This document shows, piece after piece, positions 38,467-46,198 of a stretch of DNA of 46,434 bases. A program made the translations under genes and the position numbers. The DNA lies in contig JAFXZW010000099.1 in assembly GCA_017541035.1 (NCBI GenBank), positions 1-46,434 on the forward strand, in the 5' to 3' direction. Each line of letters starts with the position of its first letter. Position 1 is the stretch's first letter. The notes under the pieces are model-generated. The model did not search any database. It worked only from the letters and a program-made list of their open reading frames with translations, and was not told where the DNA came from. Origin of the DNA: Eubacterium sp. GTDB taxonomy: Bacteria; Bacillota; Clostridia; Lachnospirales; Lachnospiraceae.

Positions 38467-40383
38467 ATGGCACTGGATTACAGGAAGTGTGCTGAAGAGA
38501 TCGTTGCCAATATAGGCGGTCGTGAAAACGTAGCTCAGGCAGCACATTGCGCAACCAGGCTCCGACTGGTTATCAAGGATAACGGTAAGCTTAACAAGTC
38601 GGCGCTCGAAAATGTAGATGGTGTAAAGGGAATGTTCGAGAATAACGGACAGCTCCAGCTCATCATCGGTACCGGTACAGTCAATAAGGTTTATGATGAG
38701 TTCCTTGCAGTGACAGGAATGTCTGCAGCAACAAAGGATGATGTAAAGGCTGCCGCCGCTGCTCAGCAGCCGGCCTGGAAGAGAGCACTGAAGTCCGTGG
38801 GTGATGTATTCGTACCAATCCTTCCGGCCATCGTGGCTTCCGGTCTTCTGATGGGCGTGGTAGAGGCGCTTGGTAAGGTGTCGGAGGATTTTGCAAGCAC
38901 AGACTGGTACGCATTCCTGGATATGATCGCGAATACCGCATTTGCCTTCCTTCCTGTAATCGTAGCTATCAGTGCGGCCCGGGTTTTCGGCGGGAATGTG
39001 TATCTGGCAGCGGTTATTGGTCTGATGATGGTTCATACGAGCCTTCTGAATGGCTGGAATGTCGGAAGCGAAGAGGCCATCAACAGCTTCTTTGGTATTA
39101 CCTCCGGTAAGATCCCAACCTGGAATCTGTTCGGGAACTGGCAGATCGGAGATTACGTCGTCGGAAGCGTTTCAAGGCAGGGTTATCAGGGCCATGTCAT
39201 ACCGGTCATGATAGCTGTCTGGTTTATGAGTAAGCTGGAGAAGTGGTTGCATAAGCATGTACCGGAAATGATCGATCTTTTTGTTGTACCGATCACGACC
39301 GTTTTCCTGACAGCGCTGATCACCTTCGTAGCGATCGGCCCCGTTTTCTCCCTGATGGAGAATTATGTGCTGAAGGGTGCCAAATGGCTGGTTCAGTTCG
39401 GACCGGGTGCAATGATCATGGGCGCTTTGTACCCATTGACGGTAGTTATGGGTCTGCACCACATGTACAACGTGATCGAAGCAGGAATGCTTTCTTCTGT
39501 CGGATTAAATACGTGGATGCCCATTGCATCCGCAGCTAATTTTGCCCAGTTTGGTGCCTGCCTTGCGGTTGGTATCAAGTGTAAGCAGGGCAAGCTGAAG
39601 ACCGTTGCGATTCCGTCCTCCATGTCTGCGGCACTCGGTATCACCGAGCCTGCGATCTTCGGTGTAAACTTCCGTTTCATGAAACCGTTCATTTGCGGTA
39701 TGGCGGGAGGTGCCGCCGGAGCACTATTCGGCTCGCTGACCGGAATCGGCGCGACGGCTTATGGTGTAACAGGTATTCCGGGGTATCTGACGATAGATAA
39801 TGCGGGACTCTATACGATCCTGTTGCTTATTTCAGGAGGTGTGGCTTTTGCGCTGACCATGTTCGTCTGGAAGGAGGATCTGCCCGCAGAGACTGTCGGA
39901 GTAGCTGAGAAGGCCGCTGCCGTGGCTGCGTTGCCGGATACAGCGGATTTTGAACAGAAGACAGTTATCAAAAGTTCGGCAGGAGAGATCGGCCAGCCGA
40001 CACCGGGTAAGGTAATCCCTTATACGGAGATCCCTGATCCCACATTTGCAGCCGGAACCCTGGGACAGGGAGTCGGCATTGAGCCTGAGACAGGAGTTGT
40101 TTATGCTCCTTACGACGGAGAGATTTCCTCGGTAGCAGAGAGCAGGCATGCCATCGGAATTACCGGCGCTGAGGATCAGGAGCTTCTGATCCATGTAGGC
40201 GTTGATACGGTGGAAATGAACGGCGATGGTTTCAATACCCTTGTAAATGAAGGCGATCAGGTGAAGAAGGGTCAGAAGCTGATGGAATTTGATATCGAGA
40301 AGATCAAGGCGGCAGGCCATCCGGATACGGTAGTCGTCCTGCTGACCAACAGTGATGATTATGAAGACGTAACCTTCGGATGA
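38467..40383 (+). CDS. scrA: PTS sucrose-type EIIBCA permease
   Basis: The 638-residue permease phosphorylates its sugar during uptake. EIIB (about 1-90) carries the phospho-cysteine C28 in AAHCATRLRLVIKD. EIIC (about 105-475) is the polytopic channel of the glucose-glucoside group. A Gln/Pro-rich linker precedes a complete EIIA of the Glc type, with histidines H561 and H576 (IHVGVDTVEMNGDGF). The presence of EIIA makes it independent of a separate Crr protein. Neighbouring fructokinase, sucrose-6-phosphate hydrolase and regulator point to sucrose, although trehalose and beta-glucoside permeases are close relatives. The start at 38467 follows AAAGGAGG. Confidence 0.93.
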   Translation: MALDYRKCAEEIVANIGGRENVAQAAHCATRLRLVIKDNGKLNKSALENVDGVKGMFENNGQLQLIIGTGTVNKVYDEFLAVTGMSAATKDDVKAAAAAQQPAWKRALKSVGDVFVPILPAIVASGLLMGVVEALGKVSEDFASTDWYAFLDMIANTAFAFLPVIVAISAARVFGGNVYLAAVIGLMMVHTSLLNGWNVGSEEAINSFFGITSGKIPTWNLFGNWQIGDYVVGSVSRQGYQGHVIPVMIAVWFMSKLEKWLHKHVPEMIDLFVVPITTVFLTALITFVAIGPVFSLMENYVLKGAKWLVQFGPGAMIMGALYPLTVVMGLHHMYNVIEAGMLSSVGLNTWMPIASAANFAQFGACLAVGIKCKQGKLKTVAIPSSMSAALGITEPAIFGVNFRFMKPFICGMAGGAAGALFGSLTGIGATAYGVTGIPGYLTIDNAGLYTILLLISGGVAFALTMFVWKEDLPAETVGVAEKAAAVAALPDTADFEQKTVIKSSAGEIGQPTPGKVIPYTEIPDPTFAAGTLGQGVGIEPETGVVYAPYDGEISSVAESRHAIGITGAEDQELLIHVGVDTVEMNGDGFNTLVNEGDQVKKGQKLMEFDIEKIKAAGHPDTVVVLLTNSDDYEDVTFG

Positions 40384-40451
40384 CAGGAACGAGGGTGATC
40401 GGAGAAAAAACCATGATGTAAAATAAAAAAGGCAAAACAGGAGGAGAAAAA

Positions 40452-40709
40452 ATGAAGGAATTTAAGTATGTGATCACAGACGAAGTAGGTATTCACGCAC
40501 GTCCGGCGGGACTGCTGGTTAAGGAAGCTAAGCAGTTCACCAGTACCATCATGATCAGTAAGGGCGATAAGAGTGCAAAGGCAACCGCTCTGATGAAGCT
40601 GATGGGCATGGGAGTGAAGAAGGGCGACGAGATCACCGTAACGGTTGAAGGTGACGACGAAGACGCTGCTGCGGCTGCGATCGAGAAGTTCCTGAAAGAA
40701 AATATGTAA
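40452..40709 (+). CDS. ptsH: HPr, phosphocarrier protein of the PTS
   Basis: The 85-residue protein relays phosphate from enzyme I to EIIA. The active histidine is H15 in GIHARPAGLLV. Where low-GC Firmicutes normally have the regulatory Ser46 (KSIMG), this protein reads TALMK, with Ala at the aligned position. HPr kinase could not make P-Ser-HPr from it at that site. It lies 68 bases after scrA behind AGGAGG and is followed by the two-copy hairpin element. Confidence 0.95.
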   Translation: MKEFKYVITDEVGIHARPAGLLVKEAKQFTSTIMISKGDKSAKATALMKLMGMGVKKGDEITVTVEGDDEDAAAAAIEKFLKENM

Positions 40710-40934
40710 TACCTTTGTTGCCGCCCAAGGAAGGCGGCAACAAACCCTCGCGTTGCTCGGGCAGTTCCTTCGGAACTTGGTGCGTACGGTTCTCTTTCCG
40801 CCTGATGGCGGAAAGGAACCTATACCTTTTTGTCCGGTCAAAGAGGACCGGACAAAAATCCCGCTTCGCGGGACAACTCCTTCGGAGTTGGGCGCAGCAC
40901 GGTTTTCGAACAGCTGAAGGCTGTTCAAAAACCT
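40709..40934 (+). ncRNA. two-copy 113-nt structured element
   Basis: Two diverged units begin with ATACCTTT at 40709 and 40822. A third ATAC stands at 40935, so the period is exactly 113. Each unit has four hairpins in the same order. Hairpin 1 is TTGTTGCCGCC/GGCGGCAACAA (40715-40743) in unit one, and TTTTTGTCCGGTC/GACCGGACAAAAA (40827-40858) in unit two. Hairpin 2 is weak in unit one (40745-40761) and CCCGC-TTC-GCGGG in unit two. Hairpin 3 is AGTTCC-TTC-GGAACT or AACTCC-TTC-GGAGTT. Hairpin 4 is closed by GGTT/AACC with unrelated inner stems CTTTCCGCC or GAACAGC. Paired positions change together. It lies in the ptsH 3' region. Confidence 0.7.
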
Positions 40935-40945
40935 ATACGATGCTG

Positions 40946-40986
40946 AAAGACAGAACACCCCCGCTTGCGGGGGGTGTTCTGTCTTT
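40946..40986 (+). terminator. very strong terminator after ptsH and the hairpin element
   Basis: AAAGACAGAACACCCCCGC (40946-40964) pairs with its complement ending in TTT at 40986, with a two-base loop and one bulged G. This ends the scrA-ptsH transcript. Confidence 0.9.
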
Positions 40987-40993
40987 ATGACAC

Positions 40994-41021
40994 TGTCATA
41001 TCACCGGGCCGAAGATATAAA
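40994..41021 (+). promoter_or_regulatory. possible promoter of scrK-scrB
   Basis: TGTCAT (40994-40999), a 16-base spacer and TATAAA (41016-41021) follow the terminator. A perfect TGACACTGTCA palindrome (40988-40998) overlaps the -35 box. No copy of the ScrR-type operator is seen here. Confidence 0.35.
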
Positions 41022-41127
41022 GAGATTTCGGGAGGCCCGATGATGTGAGAATGGCGGAAGCCTGCGAAACAGGCGGGTCATCCGGAAAGGTTTTACATCT
41101 TAAATTCAGAAAAAGGAGGAGCCTGAT

Positions 41128-42015
41128 ATGTTATACGGTGCATTGGAGGCTGGTGGAACGAAGATGGTCTGTGCCATCGGCGATGAGAACGGAAGGATCC
41201 TGGAGCAGGTTTCCATTCCTACGGTAACACCGGAGGAAACCATGCCAAAGGTAATCGCATATTTTCAGGATAAAGAGATCCGGGCACTGGGCATTGCCAG
41301 CTTCGGTCCGGTGGATCTCGACAGGTCTTCCCCGACCTATGGATATATCACGAAAACGCCGAAGCTGGCCTGGGCGAACTATGACCTGGTGGGAAAAATG
41401 AAAGCGGCTCTTCAGGTTCCCATAGGCTTTGACACGGATGTGGACGGCTCGCTTCTGGGCGAGGTAACCTGGGGTGCGGCAAAGGGTCTTTCGGACGTGG
41501 CGTATATCACCATCGGAACCGGCGTTGGCGTAGGAATCCTTTCCGGTGGAAAGGTTGTTCACGGAATGATGCATCCGGAGATGGGGCATGTAAAAGTGAT
41601 TCCCGTTCCCGGAGATACCTATTCCGGGAAGTGCCCTTTTCACGGGAACTGTCTGGAAGGTATGGCTGCCGGACCGGCTATCATGGAACGCTGGGGCGCT
41701 CCGGGGCATGAGCTGGTAGATAAGCCCGAGGTCTGGGAGTATGAGGCGGACTATATCGCGCAGGCAGTCGTGATGCTGATCCTCAGTGTGAGCCCGAAAA
41801 AGGTGATTCTGGGAGGCGGCGTTATGCATCAGATGCAGCTATTTCCCCTGATTCGTGCAAAGGTTGCGGAGAAGCTGAACGGATATCTTGTGACGAAGGA
41901 GTTGGATAATCCGGACCAATATATCGTTCCTGCCGGATGTAATGACGATCAGGGAATCATGGGAGCGATCAAACTGGCTATGGATGCAGTGAGAGAGCTT
42001 CCCGGATGTTGGTGA
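41128..42015 (+). CDS. scrK: ROK-family fructokinase
   Basis: The 295-residue enzyme phosphorylates the fructose released from sucrose-6-phosphate to fructose-6-phosphate. It has the ATP-binding ALEAGGTKMVC start and the ROK signature GTGVGVGILSGG. A zinc-binding cluster (H-P-E-M-G-H...CPFHGNCLEG) of fructokinase-type ROK kinases is also present. The start has a perfect AAGGAGGAG. The sucrose-6-phosphate hydrolase gene begins 63 bases after its stop. Confidence 0.93.
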   Translation: MLYGALEAGGTKMVCAIGDENGRILEQVSIPTVTPEETMPKVIAYFQDKEIRALGIASFGPVDLDRSSPTYGYITKTPKLAWANYDLVGKMKAALQVPIGFDTDVDGSLLGEVTWGAAKGLSDVAYITIGTGVGVGILSGGKVVHGMMHPEMGHVKVIPVPGDTYSGKCPFHGNCLEGMAAGPAIMERWGAPGHELVDKPEVWEYEADYIAQAVVMLILSVSPKKVILGGGVMHQMQLFPLIRAKVAEKLNGYLVTKELDNPDQYIVPAGCNDDQGIMGAIKLAMDAVRELPGCW

Positions 42016-45515: not shown

Positions 45516-45838
45516 CTATTATATTTTTACAGACTATTATCCCAGACTCATCCAGCAGCTAAAAGTATCACCGCCGGTATTACCTCCGGCTACCAGTTCA
45601 AGCTCATCAAAAGAGAGATCTTCATCCTCACCTTGCATGCCTTCAAGGAAGCTCATCAGCTCATCCGTCGTAGCATTGCAGTCATGCTGCTTCAAGAATT
45701 CATCAACCTTTCCCTTTTGGGACGCTTCCTTTAATTCTTCCTTAAGCGCCTCACTTGCCATCACCTCATTGTACAGTTCCTGAATCGTCTTCATCTTTTA
45801 GTCCCTTTCTTCATGTAGCTTATTATTACTATTTTTCT
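45516..45838. repeat. direct duplication, copy A (contains RiPP precursor gene 1)
   Basis: This 323-bp segment and 45868-46198 share the same ends: CTATTATATTTTTACAGAC on the left and TTATTACTATTTTTCT on the right. They are nearly identical apart from the core-coding part. The left end is also the point where the ABC-exporter gene is cut. Confidence 0.85.
45537..45794 (-). CDS. Nif11-type leader RiPP precursor 1
   Basis: The 85-residue peptide has a 71-residue Nif11-like leader (MKTIQELYNEVMASEALKEE..., with EELKEASQKGKVDEF and DELMSFLEG) ending in LELVAGG, the double-glycine cleavage site. The core of 14 residues, NTGGDTFSCWMSLG, has one Cys and several Thr/Ser, so at most one thioether ring or a heterocycle is possible. 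Nif11-type leaders direct ribosomal peptides to modification enzymes and a peptidase-exporter. None is complete in this window. The site before the ATG is AAAGGGAC, weaker than that of copy 2. Confidence 0.85.
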   Translation of the reverse strand: MKTIQELYNEVMASEALKEELKEASQKGKVDEFLKQHDCNATTDELMSFLEGMQGEDEDLSFDELELVAGGNTGGDTFSCWMSLG

Positions 45839-45867: not shown

Positions 45868-46198
45868 CTATTATATTTTTACAGACTATTATTGATTACA
45901 TCCCCCAAATAGCAGTAACCAGTTTTTTTGCCGTCATCCGCACCTCCTGCTACCAGTTCAAGCTCATCAAGAGAGAGATCTTCATCCTCACTCTGCACAC
46001 CCTCAAGGAAGCTCATCAGCTCGTCCATCGTTGCATTGCAGTCATGCTGCTTCAAGAATTCTTCAACCTTTCCCTTTTGGGACGCTTCCTTTAATTCTTC
46101 CTTAAGCGCCTCACTTGCCATCACCTCATTGTACAGTTCCTGAATCGTCTTCATCTTTTAGCTCCTTTCTTCATGTCACTTATTATTACTATTTTTCT
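45868..46198. repeat. direct duplication, copy B (contains RiPP precursor gene 2)
   Basis: This is the second copy of the segment described at 45516-45838. It is longer because its core-coding part is longer. A 29-bp spacer separates the copies. Confidence 0.85.
45879..46154 (-). CDS. Nif11-type leader RiPP precursor 2
   Basis: The 91-residue peptide's leader (71 residues) differs from that of precursor 1 at only a few positions (KVEEF for KVDEF, NATMDE for NATTDE, EGVQSE for EGMQGE, LSLDE for LSFDE). The core is unrelated: 20 residues, ADDGKKTGYCYLGDVINNSL, again with one Cys. The last residues and stop are read from the conserved right flank of the duplication, so the core has extended into sequence that is non-coding in copy 1. 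AAAGGAG stands before the ATG. Confidence 0.85.
   Translation of the reverse strand: MKTIQELYNEVMASEALKEELKEASQKGKVEEFLKQHDCNATMDELMSFLEGVQSEDEDLSLDELELVAGGADDGKKTGYCYLGDVINNSL

Follow-up and report, generated by a model that had tools for sequence, protein, structure and literature searches.

Two adjacent four-hairpin units lying between ptsH and the next gene are, at a probability of roughly 70%, copies of a non-autonomous REP/BIME-like interspersed palindromic DNA repeat of Lachnospiraceae. The window, i.e., the whole stretch of 46,434 nucleotides of a Eubacterium sp. contig that has been analysed, holds this pair on its plus strand, and further copies have been found between many different genes of related genomes. 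Such copies would spread and persist as DNA hairpins, either through a single-stranded DNA intermediate at replication or through hairpin-templated repair, so that both arms of a stem would change together. The RNA hairpins arising in the mRNA of neighbouring genes would then be a by-product, which, judging from sequence, may alter mRNA decay or read-through locally. An element that spreads by structure and an undescribed extragenic element had been among the options of the earlier note, and both are supported by the copies, the placement and the covariation described below.

The units start at 40709 and 40822, resulting in a spacing of 113 nt, and share an identity of about 60%. Unit 1 occupies 40709–40821 (covariance-model match 40709–40825, 121.3 bits) and unit 2 occupies 40822–40934 (match 40822–40938, 96.4 bits). 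Each folds into four hairpins, H1 to H4, with z-scores of −5.6 for unit 1 and −6.6 for unit 2 (the latter computed on 119 nt) and none of 200 shuffles as good; the opposite strand of unit 1, folded as DNA, has given a z-score of −8.1. In unit 1, H1 (40714–40744) shows a perfect 12-bp stem with a 7-nt loop, and the fold places H2 (CCC..GGG with an inner GC-GTT-GC) at 40745–40761, H3 (AGTTCC-TTC-GGAACT) at 40763–40777 and H4 with a TGAT loop at 40788–40820. Unit 2 comprises H1 at 40827–40858 with a perfect 13-bp stem, H2 at 40859–40873 (TCCCGC-TTC-GCGGGA, from sequence and fold) and, by fold, H3 at 40874–40890 (CAACTCC-TTC-GGAGTTG) and H4 at 40901–40933, where the single C·A mismatch would read as a U·G wobble in the opposite strand. 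Two 113-nt units with a common hairpin order, as the earlier note had described them, are thereby confirmed, the units being in register and the folds lying beyond all 200 shuffles. The same applies to stems 1 and 4, the letters of which differ between the units with pairing retained in both sequences and folds, and to the shared joining strings ATACCTTT, ACGGTT and AACCTATAC. The TTC loops that had been ascribed to both units are present in H3 of both and in H2 of unit 2; in H2 of unit 1 the loop reads GTT. The composite ACGGTT..AACCTAT occurs twice in the window vs a shuffle mean of 0.04, and other AACCTATAC strings of the window (8961 and 21666), being without a model match, have been taken as chance occurrences. 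Searched against Rfam, the two-unit stretch has no match at gathering score; at E ≤ 5 five sub-threshold matches have appeared, none of them credible.

On the left, the TAA stop of ptsH (HPr; 40452–40709, plus strand) abuts or overlaps the end of unit 1, and on the right the next gene encodes a ROK-family kinase (scrK; 41128–42015, plus strand). Pfam has identified PTS EIIBCA, HPr, ROK kinase and GH32 families among the surrounding genes; the scr and pts names beside these matches are presumed assignments of the earlier note and of our own. A separate hairpin at 40946–40986 (plus strand), located 3′ of the repeat, had been called a very strong terminator. Its 17-bp stem is indeed perfect but is followed by a poor T-run (TCTTTATG), which leaves it a possible terminator with a weak tail; a scan for terminator-like sites has yielded 4 vs 0.9 expected and lists the core of this hairpin on both strands. 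No second genomic place of the core has been found at up to one mismatch, so that it stands outside the repeat family. Elsewhere in the window, two minus-strand ORFs of 85 and 91 aa (45537–45794 and 45879–46154) share a nearly identical stretch of about 70 residues ending in ..ELVAGG, behind which their tails differ. They have no Pfam match; against the Nif11-like leader peptide family they score 21.3 and 20.4 bits, short of the cut-off of 32.3, and from their sequences they could possibly represent paired peptide precursors.

A covariance-model search of relatives, as the earlier note had proposed, has returned many genomic copies with paired substitutions. BLASTN with the 232-nt stretch detected copies in 4 of 21 genomes, and the covariance model R1, built from 11 copies, has hit 16 of the 61 genus genomes searched, the window's own included, in which copies occur singly and in tandem. 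The window's genome holds 15 copies, G002 30, G039 37, G047 36 and G067 16, and the other eleven genomes hold 1–6 each. These numbers refer to the R1 search of the 61 genus genomes and not to searches of whole loci, in which cmsearch skipped every other unit of arrays as well as the window's second unit, probably owing to the 4-nt overlap of neighbouring matches. With the window's own genome included in both draws, R1 has matched 5 of 299 genomes drawn from the family and 13 of 392 drawn from the order, the latter all Lachnospiraceae; taken over both draws, the matches extend to six genera of the same family besides the window's, part of them being weak (e.g., a single match of 41.5 bits in G222). 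R1 has found no match in phage and plasmid records, and two stretches picked up by a pattern scan of viral contigs (L102 and L103) are not matched by the covariance model. Tandem arrays keep an exact period, which is 113 nt in G002 (five full units and one partial), 104 nt in G067 and 110 nt in G000 (contig 113). Several contigs of G047 (e.g., C52, C183, C250 and C335) begin inside the element at base 1–4, as expected if the repeat breaks assembly. The 11 copies behind R1 have also served for a sequence-only model that ignores base pairing. It has returned 70 full-length copies in 8 genomes, along with partial matches; all 70 are on the list of the structure model, and the pairing is therefore not simply an artefact of the search.

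For the anatomy of the family, 99 matches have been aligned, 72 have been read out with their flanks, and 20 from other genera have been added. The order H1-H2-H3-H4 is retained across copies. CCTT precedes H1 in 64 of 86 copies, the H3 loop is TTC in 61 of 84 parsed copies and the H4 loop TGAT in 46 of 86, and the joint CTA after H4 is retained in most copies, the element ends being CCTT and CCTA. Read on the other strand, TAG stands behind H4 in 69 of 86 copies (ATAG 38, GTAG 23, TTAG 5, CTAG 3, none in 17). The letters of the stems, by contrast with these retained parts, are nearly free: single-linkage clustering of 85 copies has resolved 34 H1, 24 H3 and 28 H4 clusters. Two or more H4 clusters are found with 8 of the H1 clusters, and two or more H1 clusters with 7 of the H4 clusters. 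In G039, for instance, one H1 type is accompanied by one H4 type at L158 and L161 and by another at L162 and L168, and the latter H4 type is found with a different H1 at L171 and L178. The hairpins reassort as modules. Inverted loops have not been seen (GAA in H3 of 0 of 84 copies, ATCA in H4 of 0 of 86), and template switching that would invert the spacer is accordingly not observed. Terminal inverted repeats shared among copies have not been seen in the flanks read out within the window's genus. At G039 loci such as L162, L167, L174 and L181, an extra small hairpin repeat (catacttcgcg.., right flank) adjoins the copies, so that the elements form longer mosaics there.

Covariation is the standard argument for a conserved RNA structure, and a functional RNA is expected to tolerate G·U pairs on its own strand. 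In alignment A3, which had been fitted to the structure, both partners change in 34 of 35 pairs, 94.7% of the cells are paired (63.6% after shuffling) and 984 cells are changed on both sides (302 after shuffling); sliding the partner by one column lowers the pairing to 44–50%. Four of five covariation measures of A3 are unmatched by any of 500 shuffles, and the fifth, the number of pair types, is not exceptional, as 50 of the 500 reach its value. The distinct H1, H3 and H4 arm pairs of 86 copies comprise 1819 Watson-Crick (WC), 14 G·U, 32 A·C and 46 other pairs (1945, 17, 34 and 50, respectively, with eight hairpin-lacking rows put back). A rougher count by alignment column (2980 WC, 52 G·U, 62 A·C, 108 other) and a second one (2420, 8, 23 and 26) agree in kind. 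Among 35 distinct tRNAs, 680 WC and 60 G·U pairs have been counted (60/740, 8.1%), the A·C count there being zero by construction of the program. The element differs from the tRNAs in its G·U content at a Fisher p of 7e-22, and its wobble share amounts to 0.7% and 1.7% on its two strands vs the 8.1% of tRNA. Steps between near neighbours, counted along minimum spanning trees, point in the same direction, with 128 leading from WC to WC vs 38 one-sided ones (8 G·U, 18 A·C, 12 other) and 7 altered on both sides without WC pairing. The covariation of this family is not RNA-like and nearly lacks a G·U signature. From the earlier note, the covariation itself has thus proven real, and the selection as RNA on the strand then read has not been borne out. 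That A·C outnumbers G·U (32 vs 14, p 0.011; 34 vs 17, p 0.024 with the eight rows put back) could reflect a weak RNA-level tolerance on the reverse-complement strand, for which transcription of that strand may be the explanation. Overall, the pair pattern is such as DNA-level upkeep of palindromes would give, or a single-stranded DNA hairpin obliged to pair by WC rules. Template switching in replication has been described to re-perfect palindromes (in the part of PMC8794818 used here), and since repair at the DNA level can yield the same pattern, compensatory changes alone are no proof of an RNA function. With its 34 of 35 covarying pairs and near-absence of G·U, the family is a candidate case of covariation tests giving a false positive, and it lends itself naturally to studying palindrome upkeep at the DNA level.

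The placement relative to genes is non-random, in line with the earlier note, which had named random placement as an argument against its reading. For 93 copies, scored with a crude calling of ORFs by greedy length and uncorrected for shared descent, both neighbours run against the element in 44 cases and along it in 9; the remaining copies lie between convergent (14) or divergent genes (4), overlap a called ORF (17, including the window copy via a 199-aa antisense frame) or miss a neighbour (5). The TAG at the H4 end serves as the stop of the neighbouring ORF in 38 of the 93 copies, a feature that has been published for REP ends, which supply TAG stops to flanking ORFs (in the part of PMC3733652 considered here). 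The neighbours include an FtsX permease, an L-PSP (RidA-type) gene, rsmI and tRNA genes. The FtsX-type permease, assigned by Pfam and represented by 33 matches in 32 of 61 genomes, has been read by eye at 30 loci, of which 4 carry a full element and 3 a remnant, all with TAG; the 23 loci without element end with TAA (15) or TAG (8), which differs from the element-bearing ones at p 0.006. The stop codon has the same position in all of these loci, so that the element sits at the native stop of the gene. Other tandem or hairpin-like repeats have been noticed in the gap 3′ of this gene at L235, L251, L232 and L233, which were scored as element-free, and the gap is perhaps a hot spot for short repeats. 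At the L-PSP gene, where 6 of 16 loci are readable, the stop in G039 is TAG with the element, whereas the corresponding codon is TGA in G032 and G010 and, without an element, TAG in G003; the gene ends one codon later in G002 and three codons later in G011. In the gap between methyltransferase and rsmI, the element and a preceding GTAG stand behind the native TGA.

Concerning the origin of the window copy, 80 HPr loci have been fetched from named genomes and 34 of them, all other than the window's, searched with R1, yielding no match, and 11 of these 34, read by eye, contain none either. Judged by a look at their sequences, a kinase gene comes next in 10 of these 11, as in the window, and PTS enzyme I in the remaining one (L024). 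The copy is consequently explained most simply as an insertion after the lineages had split; the absence in relatives could instead be due to loss. No clean pair of filled and empty genomes has been found, and the element boundaries and any target duplication are therefore putative. At one site in G002 (L143, C1:2606000–2609500), a tRNA-Leu(CAA)-like gene with further tRNA genes next to it is interrupted by a copy at 1711–1824. The D arm deduced for this single site suggests an insertion behind TA without target duplication, and ARAGORN calls tRNAs in the joined flanks at many junctions, some of them of other types. An insertion behind TA would convert TAA into TAG, which fits the FtsX permease site. 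Compared with the tRNA-Leu genes of certain phages, the sequence running from the 3′ part of the split tRNA to the end of the next one shows an identity of about 73%. No uninterrupted relative has been found in the viral contigs, loci, phages and plasmids, which have returned distant tRNA matches only, and the 0.8 Mb examined of G002 contain no further Leu(CAA) gene. A Y1 transposase (PF01797) has been rejected as mobiliser, as its co-occurrence across genomes shows no association with the element: it is present in 36 of 61 genus genomes, i.e., in 10 of 16 with and 26 of 45 without the element (p 0.78), and in G039 (97% complete, 37 copies) the only match is a fragment of 33 positions. In G245, units of about 308 bp that carry inverted ends (GGCTGTAAAAAATC and GGCTGTAAAAAATCAAAATAA) enclose seven of nine listed copies (L285–L291), and those at L293 and L295 lie in other inverted arms. 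The ends of the units have 37 matches in that genome, some pairs spanning just about 200 bp; as a general boundary of the element they have been dismissed, being not seen in the window's genus.

Regarding other explanations, a functional RNA encoded on the reverse-complement strand deserves consideration, in which an intercistronic mRNA structure reaching from the UAG stop to the next ribosome-binding site would tune decay or downstream translation. The orientation between co-directional genes (44 vs 9), the use of TAG as the neighbour's stop in 38 of 93 copies and the surplus of A·C, i.e., of wobble on that strand, speak for it. Against these stand the wobble share of only 1.7% on that very strand, the patchy presence between species at one and the same gene, as seen for the FtsX permease, and the other orientation of the window copy; moreover, a preference for insertion at TA or TAG combined with purging from genes could explain the placement, and we consider this RNA unlikely. 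Still somewhat less probable is a purely mutational upkeep, in which template switching would re-perfect any palindrome without selection and rare recombination would disperse the copies. Its mechanism is published (PMC8794818, as far as drawn on here), and the mostly WC pairs and the large excess of double changes are what it predicts. It is at odds with loops and joints that are conserved in most copies and never inverted and with the fixed hairpin order; together with the high and patchy copy number, these features suggest that the element is recognised by some factor. A stand-alone small RNA, or an element protecting or processing the scrA-ptsH transcript in particular, had been suggested by the earlier note and would be compatible with the position right behind ptsH and with the strong folding. 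Both are very improbable and unsupported: none of the 34 other HPr loci carries a copy, the element adjoins other genes as well, from the FtsX permease to tRNA genes, the stems are nearly devoid of G·U, the transcribed strand is mostly the reverse complement (44/53), and a simple consensus scan has found no promoter-like site on the plus strand of 40300–41200.

We therefore favour the REP/BIME-like DNA repeat. A more specific version of this reading, which we put forward tentatively and which is in its full form rather doubtful, would be a mobile element whose recognition depends on the shape of its hairpins, its loops and its joints and not on the letters of the stems; copying through a folded single-stranded DNA would rebuild one arm from the other, the element would insert behind TA without duplication and turn TAA into TAG plus element, and the mover would be an enzyme not yet linked to it. 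The element offers many sites at which effects on operon expression can be measured.

Among known systems, MITEs are non-autonomous, numerous derivatives of DDE transposons with terminal inverted repeats and target-site duplications, and IS200/IS605-type and REPtron systems employ HUH transposases acting on hairpin ends. The element resembles MITEs in being non-autonomous and present in many copies, and in the inverted ends seen in G245, but shared terminal inverted repeats have not been seen in the flanks read out in the window's genus, and its ends are CCTT and CCTA. With IS200/IS605-type and REPtron systems it shares hairpins near the ends and, as deduced from one site, tRNA insertion without apparent target duplication, whereas no Y1 transposase is co-distributed and the stem sequence is not conserved. 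The stem-loop families of Firmicutes such as Bcr1, Clop-1 and Efa-1 are similar in size (about 70–170 bp) and in their shared predicted folds (Petrillo et al., 2008, PMC2267715); the likeness is one of description, and the part of the species table of that paper considered here names, for low-GC Firmicutes, bacilli and two Clostridium species, with no Lachnospiraceae. Also close are the GTAG REP/BIME sequences, intergenic palindromes near ORF 3′ ends (Di Nocera et al., 2013, PMC3733652). According to the part of that article used here, they are likewise interspersed between genes near 3′ ends, supply TAG stops, occur as grouped units and form sub-families with alternative complementary stem residues. 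Unlike the GTAG tag, which is conserved in more than 90% of the members of most families, the tag found here is GTAG in 23 of 86 copies and TAG in 69 of 86; the unit comprises 113 nt and four hairpins instead of a palindrome of 20–40 bp, and the RAYT/Y1 association is replaced by 10 of 16 genomes with vs 26 of 45 without the element. G·T pairs, often observed in GTAG REPs according to the same text, are rare here. As the criteria of tag, size and transposase differ, the element has not been filed as a GTAG REP. The main text of the GTAG REP paper does not contain the words Firmicutes or Clostridi, and our literature search over open-licence papers has returned no description of a REP-like repeat in Lachnospiraceae, to which the present family would add one. 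The repeat is probably a new family of REP/BIME-like interspersed palindromic DNA elements.
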